Shown: in pieces, positions 3,326-20,753 of the stretch
Layout: the number at the start of each line of letters is the position of its first letter
Position numbering within the stretch: position 1 is the stretch's first letter
Origin: a virus
IMG/VR virus record: IMGVR_UViG_3300025655_000231
Coordinates: 1 to 27,344 of that record
DNA: 27,344 nt
Direction: 5' to 3' (one strand)
The notes under the pieces: generated by a model
Database searches by the model: none
What the model was told of the DNA's origin: nothing
The model's input: only the letters and a program-made list of their open reading frames with translations
Position numbers and translations under genes: made by a program

Positions 3326-5185
3326 CTAAACTACTTCGCAAGCACCGCCAGCACAAGCAAGTTCGCCTGATAAATCAGTGTTGTCCTCTGCTTCGTAAAC
3401 ATTATTTAGATCAACTTTAGTCAAGGACTGAAGCATAACCTCATAAGTTTCCTTGGAGCAATCCTCAAATGGTGCTTGTTGGTAATTACCGCCAGCATAA
3501 GGTAAAACTGAAAGACCATTGTAAACATCGCGGTTTTCCCACATCCACTCTCCAACATCTGCCCACTCATGCTCACGGATGCTTACGGTAGCGGAAACAT
3601 TATGAGTGTTTTGACCTTTTCTATGACCTTTCCTAACCCACTCGTTTGAGACCTTTGCCACTCGCTTGAGCATGGACATGGCTGATTCTGTTCGGTAAAT
3701 TGCTCCTTCTGGAGCCTTTTGTGGAATAGAGATAACAGCAGTGTCGTGGGGTCGAAAGTATTCATCTTCAATCAATTCTGGGTGTGCCAACTGTAAGTAG
3801 TTGTAAATTGCTTCATTCTTACCGACACGAATGCGACGAATGTAGTAATCATTATGCCAAGCATGAATACCAGAGGAAGTACCTAGTGTTAGGGAGGTAG
3901 TACCTGCTGGTTTTACACAAGTAGTTCTTGCTGCCTCACGAATACCAATAAGTTTAGCAACTCGACTATTCTCCACTTTAACTGCCTTGGCTCCTGCTTC
4001 CATGTCTAGATCAAGAACAACACCAGAACCAATACCAGTCATTGAGACACCGATTAAAGCATCCTTTTCAGTGTTTCGCCTCCATACATCACGGAGATAG
4101 TGAAAGTCCGTGTAACCGGCTTGTAGTGTCCCTAGAAAGGCTGCTGCCTTAACACGGGCTTCGTACTCTTCCTGACTGTCTAAATCTGAAGCATTTACCT
4201 CAGTTAGATTGCAAAACTGGTAAGGACGAAGGGCAATCTCACAACAAGGGTTGGTTCCCCAATCCTTATCATTTGATAGGTAGATGCCGGGTTCGCCTGA
4301 ACCTGATTTCTTGATACGATCCCAAAGAGACATAAAGTATTCTTTATCAACTTTGTGTCGTAGAATTACTGCGGAGTTATTAGCTCGACCTCGCTGTGGG
4401 TTTGCTTCCCACCAAGATCCTGATTTTGCTGCAATCATTTCATCATCATCTGCTGAGAAGAGCGAGATAAGAGCGGCTCTGCGAATACCACCAGCCAAAA
4501 CAGCATCAGCAATATGACAAACCATGTCGTGAACTTCGATTGGCTCAAGCTTATCGCCATCTACCTTCTCTGCTAAAATACCCTCAACCTTTACCAAACA
4601 CTCACGAAGGGGCTGTGGTCCTGGGGCTTTACCACCTGAAGTTACAAGACGGGCTCCCTTTGGACGAATGTCGCTGAAATCAAAACGAAGTTTTGATGTT
4701 CCCTTAAAGTAAGAGTAAACAAGAGCCTTTACAGCATCAGCCCAACCTTCAATAGAATCTGAGATTAAGAAGCGACGGGTTCGCTTTGAGTTTGGTTTAC
4801 GAATTTCTGGTAGCTTTTCAACATGGTGAGATTGAACTGAAAAGCCAACACCAGTTCCACCTAATAGGAGGAACATACATTCTGCGAAAGCATCAGGGTG
4901 ATCTATCGGCATATAAGCACAATTATATACACGGTTTGGGGCAACTTCAATTGGCTTGCCTGCAAATTGCATTGACCTCATTGAAGGTAGAATCTTTTTA
5001 GTTATGACATAGTTGTCATAGACTTTAGTAATTTCTTCTTTTAAGTCTGGATACTTCTTAATATGCATATCCCTATTGCGAATACAAAGTTCTACCCAGC
5101 TTTCCCTTCTTTGCTTTTCAGGAATATACTTTGCATACTTCATGTGTACTGTAATGTCTGATAAAATTTCTGATGCTATCTGCAT
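3326..5185 (-). CDS. nrdJ: Adenosylcobalamin-dependent ribonucleotide reductase (class II, monomeric)
   Basis: The 619-residue enzyme reduces ribonucleotides to deoxyribonucleotides for phage DNA synthesis, using a B12-derived radical, so it works without oxygen or a second subunit. The family signatures are in order: NRVYNCAYMP (C89, one of the redox pair), the LLGGTGVGFSV segment, the thiyl-radical region NPCCE (C314 and E316), FCNLTEV (C325, the second redox cysteine) and a C-terminal C611-x4-C616 pair that regenerates the active site. It resembles Lactobacillus RTPR (739 aa) but is about 120 residues shorter. The residue after the thiyl cysteine is cysteine, where the model enzyme has glycine. 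The ATG overlaps the helicase stop (TAATG) and follows AAGGAGAAC, so translation is coupled. Confidence 0.93.
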   Translation of the reverse strand: MQIASEILSDITVHMKYAKYIPEKQRRESWVELCIRNRDMHIKKYPDLKEEITKVYDNYVITKKILPSMRSMQFAGKPIEVAPNRVYNCAYMPIDHPDAFAECMFLLLGGTGVGFSVQSHHVEKLPEIRKPNSKRTRRFLISDSIEGWADAVKALVYSYFKGTSKLRFDFSDIRPKGARLVTSGGKAPGPQPLRECLVKVEGILAEKVDGDKLEPIEVHDMVCHIADAVLAGGIRRAALISLFSADDDEMIAAKSGSWWEANPQRGRANNSAVILRHKVDKEYFMSLWDRIKKSGSGEPGIYLSNDKDWGTNPCCEIALRPYQFCNLTEVNASDLDSQEEYEARVKAAAFLGTLQAGYTDFHYLRDVWRRNTEKDALIGVSMTGIGSGVVLDLDMEAGAKAVKVENSRVAKLIGIREAARTTCVKPAGTTSLTLGTSSGIHAWHNDYYIRRIRVGKNEAIYNYLQLAHPELIEDEYFRPHDTAVISIPQKAPEGAIYRTESAMSMLKRVAKVSNEWVRKGHRKGQNTHNVSATVSIREHEWADVGEWMWENRDVYNGLSVLPYAGGNYQQAPFEDCSKETYEVMLQSLTKVDLNNVYEAEDNTDLSGELACAGGACEVV

Positions 5186-18500: not shown

Positions 18501-18752
18501 TTAGTTATCAACTTTATTAGCATCAGTGTGATATTTCAAAAGTTTATCAAAAAACCAGTTTCTTAAATTAATTGGAAGAGAATAAGCTTCAGTGAAACTA
18601 AAGTTTGATTTAAATACCATTAAGAATATCTGTTCATAAACAGATTTAAAGTATTCACTCGACAAGCCAAAAAAAGTTTGCCCCGATCGGGACACCTCCT
18701 TTGTTGAGATGTCCACATTCTTTACATTCCTGCTGAAAAGTGAAATCAACAT
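18501..18752 (-). CDS. gp51-like baseplate assembly frame, start uncertain (possible frameshift product)
   Basis: The well-supported part runs from about 18668 down to 18501 and reads GLSSEYFKSVYEQIFLMVF, then FTEAYSLPINLRNWFFDKLLKY. 'F.....Y..I+.+.....FT..+.Y.LPI.LR.WF.+..' is typical of small T4-type baseplate hub assembly proteins. The first ATG in this frame (18752) lies well inside the preceding gene and has no ribosome binding site, so the N-terminal 28 residues read from there are probably not made. Possible true starts are TTG 18665 or GTG codons upstream, but the frame also joins smoothly to the preceding protein by a +1 shift at the run of seven T (18669-18675). The fused product would be about 341 aa. 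Confidence 0.55.
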   Translation of the reverse strand: MLISLFSRNVKNVDISTKEVSRSGQTFFGLSSEYFKSVYEQIFLMVFKSNFSFTEAYSLPINLRNWFFDKLLKYHTDANKVDN

Positions 18753-19527
18753 CGGGGCTAAAACTATTGTATTGTTTCTTTAAAAACTTTGAATCTTTAA
18801 GCAACATTGATTGTACAAATCCATTAATTGTATTTGGATTGTTGTTACCGTCCACAGATACAATCATTCTTCTGTGAAGCTCAACTGTTTCATTTGGTTG
18901 AATACCATGCTTCTTTTGTTGTTCTGCTGCTTTATTAATTTGTTTTAGATCGCCAGCAGTCATTATCTTGAACTCAACTTCTTTATTTGATAATGGTAAA
19001 GTTACACAAACAGTGTTATTCTCTGTAACTCTCTCTAAATCTATTTCAACAGAACCAAGATCAGATAAACTAATAGAACACTCTACATCTGAGAGGCATG
19101 TATTACAACCTATAACAAACTCGTACTCATTGCCGTATGAGTTCTTTCTAGCATTAATTAAAATGGCGTTTCTATCACCCGGTAATAAAGTAGTTGAATC
19201 AACTCTGTCTACGGTTACGCTTTCAATTAATCTGTCGAACATGACGCCAGCCTTAGCGTAAGCCTCGGAACTTAAAATATCTTCTTCTTTTGTAGTCATG
19301 TAGCGAACTTCAACGCTTTCTTTGTTATGCCATGGGTGATTTGGACTATAAAACATTCCCTTCGATGGTAGCTCAACAAAATCAGTTGGTACTTGATAGC
19401 CTGTGGCTGCTGGGACTGTTTGGGGAGCAGGTACTGGCTGCTGATTATCAAACTTTTCTTCCTGCTGCTTCATAAACTGTTCTAGAAGCTCAGGAGGGAT
19501 TTGAGTTCTTCCCTCATTGTTTCTCAT
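18655..19527 (-). CDS. Baseplate hub assembly protein, T4 gp26 type
   Basis: The 290-residue protein has the T4_baseplate family pattern: FVELPSKGMFYSPNHPW near residue 50, then VRYMTTKEEDIL, LLPGDRNAILINARKNSYG, and a cysteine pair C141-x2-C144 matched by C268-x2-C271 (CKECGH), which should bind zinc and close the fold. The first 45 residues are glutamine/proline-rich and probably unstructured. It is longer than T4 gp26 (208 aa). In T4 such proteins help build the baseplate hub. Its last 98 bases overlap the next frame, with a run of seven T just before the final four codons, so ribosomes may shift and make an extended form. The ATG follows AAGAGGTTTAA. Confidence 0.8.
   Translation of the reverse strand: MRNNEGRTQIPPELLEQFMKQQEEKFDNQQPVPAPQTVPAATGYQVPTDFVELPSKGMFYSPNHPWHNKESVEVRYMTTKEEDILSSEAYAKAGVMFDRLIESVTVDRVDSTTLLPGDRNAILINARKNSYGNEYEFVIGCNTCLSDVECSISLSDLGSVEIDLERVTENNTVCVTLPLSNKEVEFKIMTAGDLKQINKAAEQQKKHGIQPNETVELHRRMIVSVDGNNNPNTINGFVQSMLLKDSKFLKKQYNSFSPDVDFTFQQECKECGHLNKGGVPIGANFFWLVE
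18669..18702 (-). promoter_or_regulatory. Candidate translational frameshift signal
   Basis: In minus-strand order: AAAGGAGGTG (18702-18693), close to a perfect Shine-Dalgarno sequence, the palindrome CCCGATCGGG (18691-18682) and seven T (18675-18669). No start codon sits at the right distance from the Shine-Dalgarno-like sequence. A +1 slip of tRNA-Phe on the T run (TTT TTT T/GGC) would fuse the gp26-type frame to the gp51-like frame. Confidence 0.45.
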
Positions 19528-19536
19528 TTAAACCTC

Positions 19537-20181
19537 TTAAAATAAACCTTGACCAAGCTCTAACTTAGCCCAATCATATTGTACCGTAACATTAATATCT
19601 GTTAAGCCCTCATCTGAATAACTATTATCACTGAACTTAACAGAGGTAATCATACCATTATAAATTGTCCACGTTTCAAACGTAGTTCCATCTGGCTTTA
19701 AAGCAACAATCTTTAGATTACCTAATGCTCTTGTTAGGTTCTCTTTTGTTAGATTTCTTGTACCAAAAGCAGCGTCTCTGGCGGTGTCTAAAGGATTTGC
19801 GATAGCTGATAGTACACCAAGATTCTTTGATGTATTAACGTCGTCTGGGTAGTAGTAGGAGTGGGCTAATAGCTTAGCCATAACGTTACCACCAACAGAA
19901 CCTACTGTTTGACCATCATAAATCTCTCGTATTGTAAAACTAATTTGATCCCACTTAACTCTAACTGGATATCTGACCACATGATCTAATAAAACGTGTT
20001 CTACGGTTGATACTGTGTAAGATGGGCGATCAATACGACTAATATAAAAAGCTGGAATGTTATCAATTAAAGCTACGAAACGAAACTTCTGTTGAGCATA
20101 AACCTCTAGATCGTTTCTAAACAATTGTGATTGACCGTCAAAGACGGTATACTTTGCTATATTTCCAAGTGTTCCAGCCAT
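19537..20181 (-). CDS. Second tail tube-like protein (gp19 paralog), 214 aa
   Basis: The protein follows the gp19 pattern of the gene upstream: FRFVALIDNIPAFYISRIDRPS, then LLDHVVRYPVRVKWDQISFTI, and a C-terminal YSDEGLTDINVTVQYDWAKLE that parallels YSDEGLIELGLTISYDWAELE in its neighbour. It carries an extra segment of about 30 residues (near 115-145), so it is longer than T4 gp19 (163 aa). The tube fold is also used for tube initiator and terminator rings in contractile tails, so this copy could cap or start the tube rather than form its body. It begins 26 bases after its paralog and ends 9 bases before the gp26-type gene. Confidence 0.75.
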   Translation of the reverse strand: MAGTLGNIAKYTVFDGQSQLFRNDLEVYAQQKFRFVALIDNIPAFYISRIDRPSYTVSTVEHVLLDHVVRYPVRVKWDQISFTIREIYDGQTVGSVGGNVMAKLLAHSYYYPDDVNTSKNLGVLSAIANPLDTARDAAFGTRNLTKENLTRALGNLKIVALKPDGTTFETWTIYNGMITSVKFSDNSYSDEGLTDINVTVQYDWAKLELGQGLF

Positions 20182-20207: not shown

Positions 20208-20753
20208 TTATTCAGTTGGACTAAAAGTCTCTAATTCAGCCCAATCGTAAGAAATGGTTAAGCCTAACTCGATCAAGCCCTCATCACTGTAGCTCATCTG
20301 GTTGTAAGTTACTGACTTGACCCAAACAGAGTTGAGTCTCCAAGTCTCAATTGTTTCACCAGCAGTGTTTAGTGTATCAATTGTAACCTGACCTAACTGA
20401 TCAATAAAGCTAGCTTTACCAACTGACTTTCTTAGGTAGTTGGGATCTGAAGGGGATGCGCTAAAGTCACCAGGGTAAACATAACCGGCATTTCTTACTA
20501 GAGCTAGCAATCTACTAGAGACATCAGGATCAATTGGATCTACTAGGTTAATGCTAATATCATTCCAAGTGACTCTGCCTGGGAACTTAAAATCGTGAAC
20601 CAAAAACTCATGCTTAGCCTCACCAACTGTTACTGTTGGTCTGTCTGTAGTCTTAACAACATAAGCTGGGATGCCTGCGATGTTAAGAATAAACTTATAT
20701 TTTCTTTTTGGTTCTGTTAGTGGGTTTGCCCAAACTGGAATTGCTGTAGCCAT
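20208..20753 (-). CDS. Tail tube protein, T4 gp19-like
   Basis: The 181-residue protein should polymerise into the inner tube through which DNA is ejected. Its length and motifs fit gp19: RKYKFILNIAGIPAYVVKTTDRP, HDFKFPGRVTWNDISINLVD, ETIETWRLNSVWVKSVTYNQ and YSDEGLIELGLTISYDWAELE. The gene directly follows the sheath gene, as in T4 and most contractile-tail phages. The ATG at 20753 has TTTAGGAGACAAAAAATAA before it, a good ribosome binding site, and a CTATTTA motif lies 22 bp upstream, consistent with strong late expression of an abundant protein. Confidence 0.88.
   Translation of the reverse strand: MATAIPVWANPLTEPKRKYKFILNIAGIPAYVVKTTDRPTVTVGEAKHEFLVHDFKFPGRVTWNDISINLVDPIDPDVSSRLLALVRNAGYVYPGDFSASPSDPNYLRKSVGKASFIDQLGQVTIDTLNTAGETIETWRLNSVWVKSVTYNQMSYSDEGLIELGLTISYDWAELETFSPTE

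Follow-up and report, generated by a model that had tools for sequence, protein, structure and literature searches.

Tail assembly chaperone frameshifting is among the most conserved recoding events of phages. In lambda, a short (gpG) and a long (gpGT) chaperone are made from one gene located upstream of the tape measure gene, the long form arising by a −1 shift near the 3' end (PMC5009743). Atkins 2016 describes this scheme as conserved, lists T4 as an exception, and considers a haloarchaeal myovirus very likely to shift +1 (PMC5009743). T4 itself has two paralogous genes, gp26 (short) and gp51 (long). As related in papers citing Vladimirov 2022, the chaperones of T4-like phages come from two genes, one short and one a longer fusion (PMC10885494), poly-T −1 signals are known in T4-like chaperone genes (PMC12846349), and gp26/gp51-type proteins have already been proposed as tail assembly chaperones. 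By these accounts, gp26 and gp51 are not an additional case beside the tail assembly chaperones, as a sequence-only reading of the present locus had supposed, but would themselves be the chaperones of T4-like phages.

The influence of RNA structure on shift direction has been described in engineered systems, where an upstream hairpin or Shine-Dalgarno (SD) duplex stimulates +1 shifting and counteracts −1 shifting, downstream structures having the opposite effects (PMC6321510, PMC3639245). Upstream hairpins boosted +1 shifting both in a 70S system (PMC6321510) and in yeast (PMC3639245); as described for the 70S system, the effect was seen only when RF2 was left out and the site contained a stop (PMC6321510).

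The DNA analysed here (the window) is a 27-kb fragment from a 27-kb virus record. On its minus strand lies a gp26-type gene that, judged by comparison with related sequences, very likely yields a pair of tail assembly chaperones, the longer one through a programmed +1 ribosomal frameshift. The features of this locus are as follows.

19527-18655, minus strand: short form, 290-aa ORF of the gp26 family (PF12322, phrog_150) ending in ..NFFWLVE and a stop (ORF and profile match)
18752-18501, minus strand: second-frame ORF of 83 aa (ORF list)
18702-18694, minus strand: AAAGGAGGT, SD-like element internal to the gene, with 18 nt between it and the first TTT downstream (GGA 21/21, GGT 18/21)
18693-18680, minus strand: hairpin GUCCC-GAUC-GGGGC between the SD-like element and the shift site (energy tests and covariation)
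18669-18678, minus strand: shift site AAC TTT TTT T, Phe codon(s) then T, with a predicted +1 slip (conserved junction)
18504-18668, minus strand: +1-frame C-terminal extension of 55 aa (GLSSEYF..KVDN), gp51-tail-like, with its stop at 18501-18503 (coding constraint and homology)
18504-19527, minus strand: predicted long form of 341 aa, one T skipped (conceptual fusion)

The two ORFs overlap by 98 bp, with the second in the +1 frame relative to the first, and the run of seven T lies at 18669-18675 on the minus strand, both as the sequence-only reading had described. The 3' end of the 290-aa ORF reads TTT TTT TGG CTT GTC GAG TGA, and translation with one T skipped yields the smooth fusion ..ANFF-GLSSEYF.. 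of 341 aa anticipated by that reading. The window has no classical −1 site (an in-frame X_XXY_YYZ with an open −1 frame): the gp26 frame reads C_TTT_TTT, and in the −1 frame a stop is reached 35 nt beyond that of gp26. A run of seven T is by itself nothing unusual in the window, where eight are found on the two strands; such runs are depleted relative to dinucleotide shuffles of the window (32 expected on average), none of which had fewer than eight. No tRNA genes were found in the window.

The 290-aa ORF is preceded by a tail sheath gene and two tail tube genes, and followed by a 545-aa ORF in the tape measure position. The 545-aa ORF had no family match in PHROG and Pfam profile searches, and its counterpart is annotated as tape measure in immuto, LIS04 and SP-15. 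The tail tube genes (19537-20181 and 20208-20753) stand in tandem and both belong to phrog_4542; elsewhere, the gene at 3326-5185 is of the class II, B12-dependent ribonucleotide reductase type and matches an insertion domain. Against PF12322 the 290-aa protein scored 48.7 bits, above the curated cut-off of 24.5. T4 gp26 and gp51 both cover the full PF12322 profile, gp51 being ~48 residues longer, and among ten records T4 has two PF12322 genes, seven others have one each, and immuto and Mel-JY01 have none, although tblastn finds one place in each of these two. The predicted structure of the short form (pLDDT 84.4, pTM 0.74) has its best fold match in the HK97 tail assembly chaperone (probability 0.75, Z 5.4, 71 residues; next match 2.7), a clear margin at a Z below the level that settles a fold. 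VIA-align gave no other chaperone chain among the matches listed, which excludes nothing, and a single-sequence model of the 341-aa fusion was poor (pLDDT 36.5) and was set aside. By position, homology and this modest fold match, the gp26-type protein would be a tail assembly chaperone. The arrangement resembles that of lambda gpG/gpGT as described in PMC5009743, with short and long chaperones from one gene, a 3'-end shift and a tape measure gene downstream, except that lambda shifts −1 and the window is predicted to shift +1; the fold comparison made here consists of the HK97 match at Z 5.4.

Two scans for relatives of the window, with L021, L040 and L041 left out because the extension was absent or the sequence cut, provided 50 locus records from 44 contigs; 33 of the sequences are distinct, and 21 representatives remain below 90% identity. 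The extension lies in the +1 frame in all 33 distinct sequences of this window clade, and the junction, which begins 21 nt ahead of the point where the gp26 stop codon ends, reads TTT TTT TGG in all but L038, where it is TTT TTT CGG and the +1 frame still encodes Phe (TTC) (33/33 fit). A scan with Mel-JY01 yielded at least 600 relatives, of which the best 80 were taken and two incomplete loci (L190 and L219) dropped. All 78 usable loci from these best 80 of at least 600 have an open +1 frame, complete in 76, and their junctions are TTT TTT TGG (73), CTT TTT TGG (3) and TTT TTT TAC (2). A slippery site near the 3' end of the gene with a conserved extension in another frame is found in 33/33 of the window clade and 78/78 of the Mel-JY01 group (best 80 of at least 600). 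UGG as a universal next codon was considered and rejected, given CGG in L038 and UAC in two Mel-JY01-group loci.

Nine of 15 GenBank matches were examined, the other six being named duplicates or close relatives of these. The +1 relation, UUU_C variants included, is present in six of the nine (LR756508, immuto, Mel-JY01, LIS04, SP-15 and GXN1), and a −1 relation with a T_TTT_TTY heptamer in three (LR756511, RAS14 and Atu_ph07). Viral-contig scans with the LR756508 and SP-15 proteins gave zero and one locus, respectively, and GenBank phages gave no match to the region at the DNA level or to the extension alone by tblastn. What goes beyond chance, as these alignments indicate, is the conservation of the +1 relation together with TTTTTT[TC]GG, and ribosomes in a large group of uncultured bacterial viruses probably skip one base at the conserved T run.

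The sequence-only reading had proposed alignment with relatives and had raised a sequencing error in the T run as an objection. Homopolymer runs are error-prone; the T run and the frame relation of the overlap are nonetheless kept in 44 contigs, and sequencing error is therefore excluded. The same arrangement occurs in isolates such as Mel-JY01, and a decayed, split gene is contradicted by protein-level constraint on the extension, so that the probability of an error or a decayed gene is practically nil. It might also be supposed that transcriptional slippage on the run of seven T deletes one base in some mRNAs, and some slippage on runs of this length is possible. This origin of the long form is extremely unlikely: the frame relation persists where a C leaves six T (L038) or TTT C (LR756508), and the SD-like element and hairpin are elements that act on ribosomes. 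A shift of −2 in place of +1, adding one Phe, is permitted by the window itself, where seven T allow both re-pairings, but is very unlikely in view of LR756508 (AAC TTT CTA), GXN1 (TTC TTT CGT) and immuto (AGC TTT CTT), which mispair at −2 and pair at +1.

Synonymous conservation is highest, for the gene as a whole, within the final 20 codons, which include the SD-like element and the shift site; here GGA (21/21), GGT (18/21), NNC (21/21) and TTT TTT (21/21) are retained among the 21 representatives. The near-perfect SD sequence reported upstream of the T run is indeed present, as AAAGGAGGT. In the window clade the strongest anti-SD energy (mean −10.7, 17/17 dereplicated sequences) lies at −26 relative to the first T, and GGAGG followed by TTTTTTTGG at the spacing seen here is found a single time in the window and in 0/100 dinucleotide shuffles. 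The element is weaker elsewhere: in the dereplicated Mel-JY01 group (best 80 of at least 600) the SD-like peak is weak and farther upstream, with the strong element absent, and SP-15, LIS04 and GXN1, read by eye, have no GGAGG just upstream. The stimulators are therefore not universal.

The palindrome CCCGATCGGG of the sequence-only reading sits inside GTCCC-GATC-GGGGC (18693-18680), which forms a hairpin abutting the codon before TTT TTT (AAC in the window). Stems in the window clade are mostly 4-6 bp with loops mostly of 4 nt; those of L016 and L038 have 3 bp only, and the hairpins of L026 and L051 are not significant singly over 18 nt. Hairpin energy was −7.38, compared with −2.94 when codons were redrawn synonymously (0/1000) and −5.73 when codons for the same amino acid were shuffled among relatives (0/1000), tests that overstate independence because the representatives share ancestry; the excess is also seen over the −27..0 window. 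These amino-acid-preserving tests show selection on the hairpin beyond amino-acid constraint. Of 22 distinct junctions, 12 in register I and eight in register II were used for pair counts, with L048 and L054 omitted for other loop sizes. In the register-I alignment, pair 15-24 is CG in nine, GC in two and UA in one of the 12 sequences, which constitutes covariation; the eight register-II hairpins have 92.5% of cells paired and no covariation. Upstream structure in the dereplicated Mel-JY01 group (best 80 of at least 600) also exceeds synonymous expectation (0/300; column shuffle 1/1000). The dereplicated subsets in these windowed tests comprised 17-19 sequences of the window clade, 39-47 of the Mel-JY01 group and 27 of the cyanophage type. 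A downstream stimulator was sought in both +1 groups and none was found (mean z −0.11 for 19 sequences of the window clade and +0.27 for 47 of the Mel-JY01 group, best 80 of at least 600).

An SD-like sequence inside a gene could also serve as a ribosome binding site, with the extension made as a separate small protein by internal initiation or re-initiation. AAGGAGGT would be a strong binding site, and nine of the 21 representatives have a +1-frame TTG at −11, ~8 nt behind the SD-like sequence; the window and the other 12 lack it. Some ATG, GTG or TTG is in frame in 31/33 distinct window-clade sequences and 49/78 Mel-JY01-group loci (best 80 of at least 600), and the missing conserved start is therefore no proof on its own. 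Two of the 33 (L011 and L016) and 29/78 Mel-JY01-group loci (best 80 of at least 600) have no such start at all, L013 has only a TTG behind the shift site, and internal initiation leaves the invariant TTT TTT T/C unexplained. It is accordingly judged improbable. Relatives with separate genes and a clear start for the second, which the sequence-only reading had thought would speak against a frameshift, were not encountered, and its statement that the second frame lacks a well-placed start stands, to be refined in one respect: a +1-frame GTG lies directly after the SD-like sequence, but is not spaced as a start for that sequence because it overlaps it.

The extension itself behaves as a real coding domain: past the gp26 stop, the first, second and third codon positions of the +1 frame differ between relatives by 0.39, 0.24 and 0.54, respectively, as coding DNA does. 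It carries the motif G-L-x-x-x-Y ... Y-x-x-P-[IV]-x-x-R, and in L051:2974-3162 and L054:2968-3144 some seven additional residues follow the shift site ahead of the conserved Y motif. The extension of the window matched no PHROG or Pfam family. Profile comparison joined the window-clade and Mel-JY01-group extensions (P 4.9e-24), the +1 extensions and the cyanophage −1 extensions (P 3.7e-7), and the cyanophage extensions and T4-like gp51 tails (P 1e-12), with reversed controls from 0.09 to 0.5; directly, the +1 extensions and gp51 tails match weakly (P 0.011). An alignment mixing short forms with extensions misplaced the latter and was set aside. The predicted long form thus carries the gp51 C-terminal tail by a chain of profile matches that runs through the cyanophages, and the earlier label "gp51-like" was right even though the tail in the window matches no profile. 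Like the window, T4 has PF12322 proteins in a short and a long form with a homologous C-terminal tail; the window, a 27-kb fragment, differs in showing one gene and a predicted +1 shift in place of two paralogs. Among L056:3226-3489, L057:3234-3470, L058:3208-3439 and L059:3175-3394, the annotated start of the extension is too late, downstream, in immuto and SP-15, LIS04 has no gene at the extension, and both parts are "hypothetical" in Mel-JY01.

The +1 programmed frameshift put forward in the sequence-only reading is well supported by these comparisons, and we infer the following course of events. Most ribosomes would read NFF-WLVE-stop and produce the 290-aa short form, and a minority would skip one base at AAC UUU UUU U GG, adding the 55-aa C-terminal domain to give a long form of 341 aa, the counterpart of T4 gp51. 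The Phe tRNA would leave its UUU and pair again one base ahead, with UUU or, in some relatives, UUC. Behind the ribosome, after its passage, the hairpin GUCCC-GAUC-GGGGC would reform beside the AAC codon, and the SD-like AAGGAGGU would pair with 16S rRNA; with the hairpin folded out, the 18-nt spacing would be reduced to ~4 nt, and the two upstream duplexes may push the ribosome forward. A ~4-nt spacing is close to that at the release factor 2 (prfB) +1 site, where ~3 nt separate the Shine-Dalgarno sequence from the slip codon downstream and the A site holds a stop codon. P-site +1 re-pairing with an upstream SD duplex, as discussed for prfB in PMC6321510, is common to that site and to the proposal made here. 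The window differs from prfB in having UUU or UGG and no stop codon in the A site, in an 18-nt linear spacing that holds a hairpin, and in being a structural gene and not a case of autoregulation; it is not a prfB-type member, but may work similarly. Slipping on the first or the second TTT gives the same protein. We favour the first, since LR756508 contains a single TTT, and the hairpin read there by eye (CGCAUCC-CGUU-GGAUGCG) also sits directly against that AAC codon. The UUU_C re-pairing of the Phe tRNA would be shared with influenza PA-X (UUU_CGU), and GXN1 has the same TTT CGT; PA-X differs in using eukaryotic ribosomes, and as summarised in PMC3498833 no SD or upstream hairpin is named for it.

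Phages of the cyanophage S-PM2 type have an orthologous gene in the same place before the tape measure gene and a homologous extension, and differ in their signals. In the best 80 of 276 relatives found with S-PM2 gp26, T_TTT_TTC lies close before the stop with an open −1 frame in 80/80. Among 27 dereplicated loci from these best 80 of 276, an SD-like peak at −16 is present in 59%, a strong downstream hairpin is evident (mean z −3.40; 21/27 at or below −1.5), and no excess upstream structure was found. S-PM2 (L066:1160-1235) and L075-L154 show a textbook −1 junction of T_TTT_TTC, upstream SD-like element and long downstream hairpin, and the annotation nonetheless gives the cyanophage gp51 a gene of its own, beginning at an ATG beyond the gp26 stop. 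In the 595-kb phage genome LR756511 (L061:3150-3430), T_TTT_TTC stands well before the stop with a long −1 frame, and the extension also has an ATG. Shift direction and the side of the structure seem, from these sequences, to switch together across the groups. The E-site-adjacent hairpins that raise +1 and lower −1 shifting were designed reporters (PMC3639245, PMC6321510), whereas that of the window is a natural, conserved element; by analogy, the phages seem to use naturally the geometry that those studies built.

The machinery looks new, namely a strong SD-like element followed by a covarying hairpin that abuts the codon before TTT TTT, within the limits of the literature searched, as Vladimirov 2022 may already describe some of the sites. 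We consider it moderately probable that the whole account holds together: a natural +1 site of bacterial ribosomes stimulated by a conserved, covarying, E-site-adjacent upstream hairpin and an internal SD; a family that switched direction by moving structure from 3' (−1, cyanophages) to 5' (+1, window clade) of the site; and T4 having swapped frameshifting for gene duplication. It would also follow that the long chaperone is truncated or missing in the annotation of phage genomes arranged in this way. One gene family would thus reach the same protein pair by three routes, a −1 shift, a +1 shift and two genes, and the paired change in shift direction and in the side on which the stimulator lies would amount to a natural experiment on a mechanism so far described in engineered reporters.
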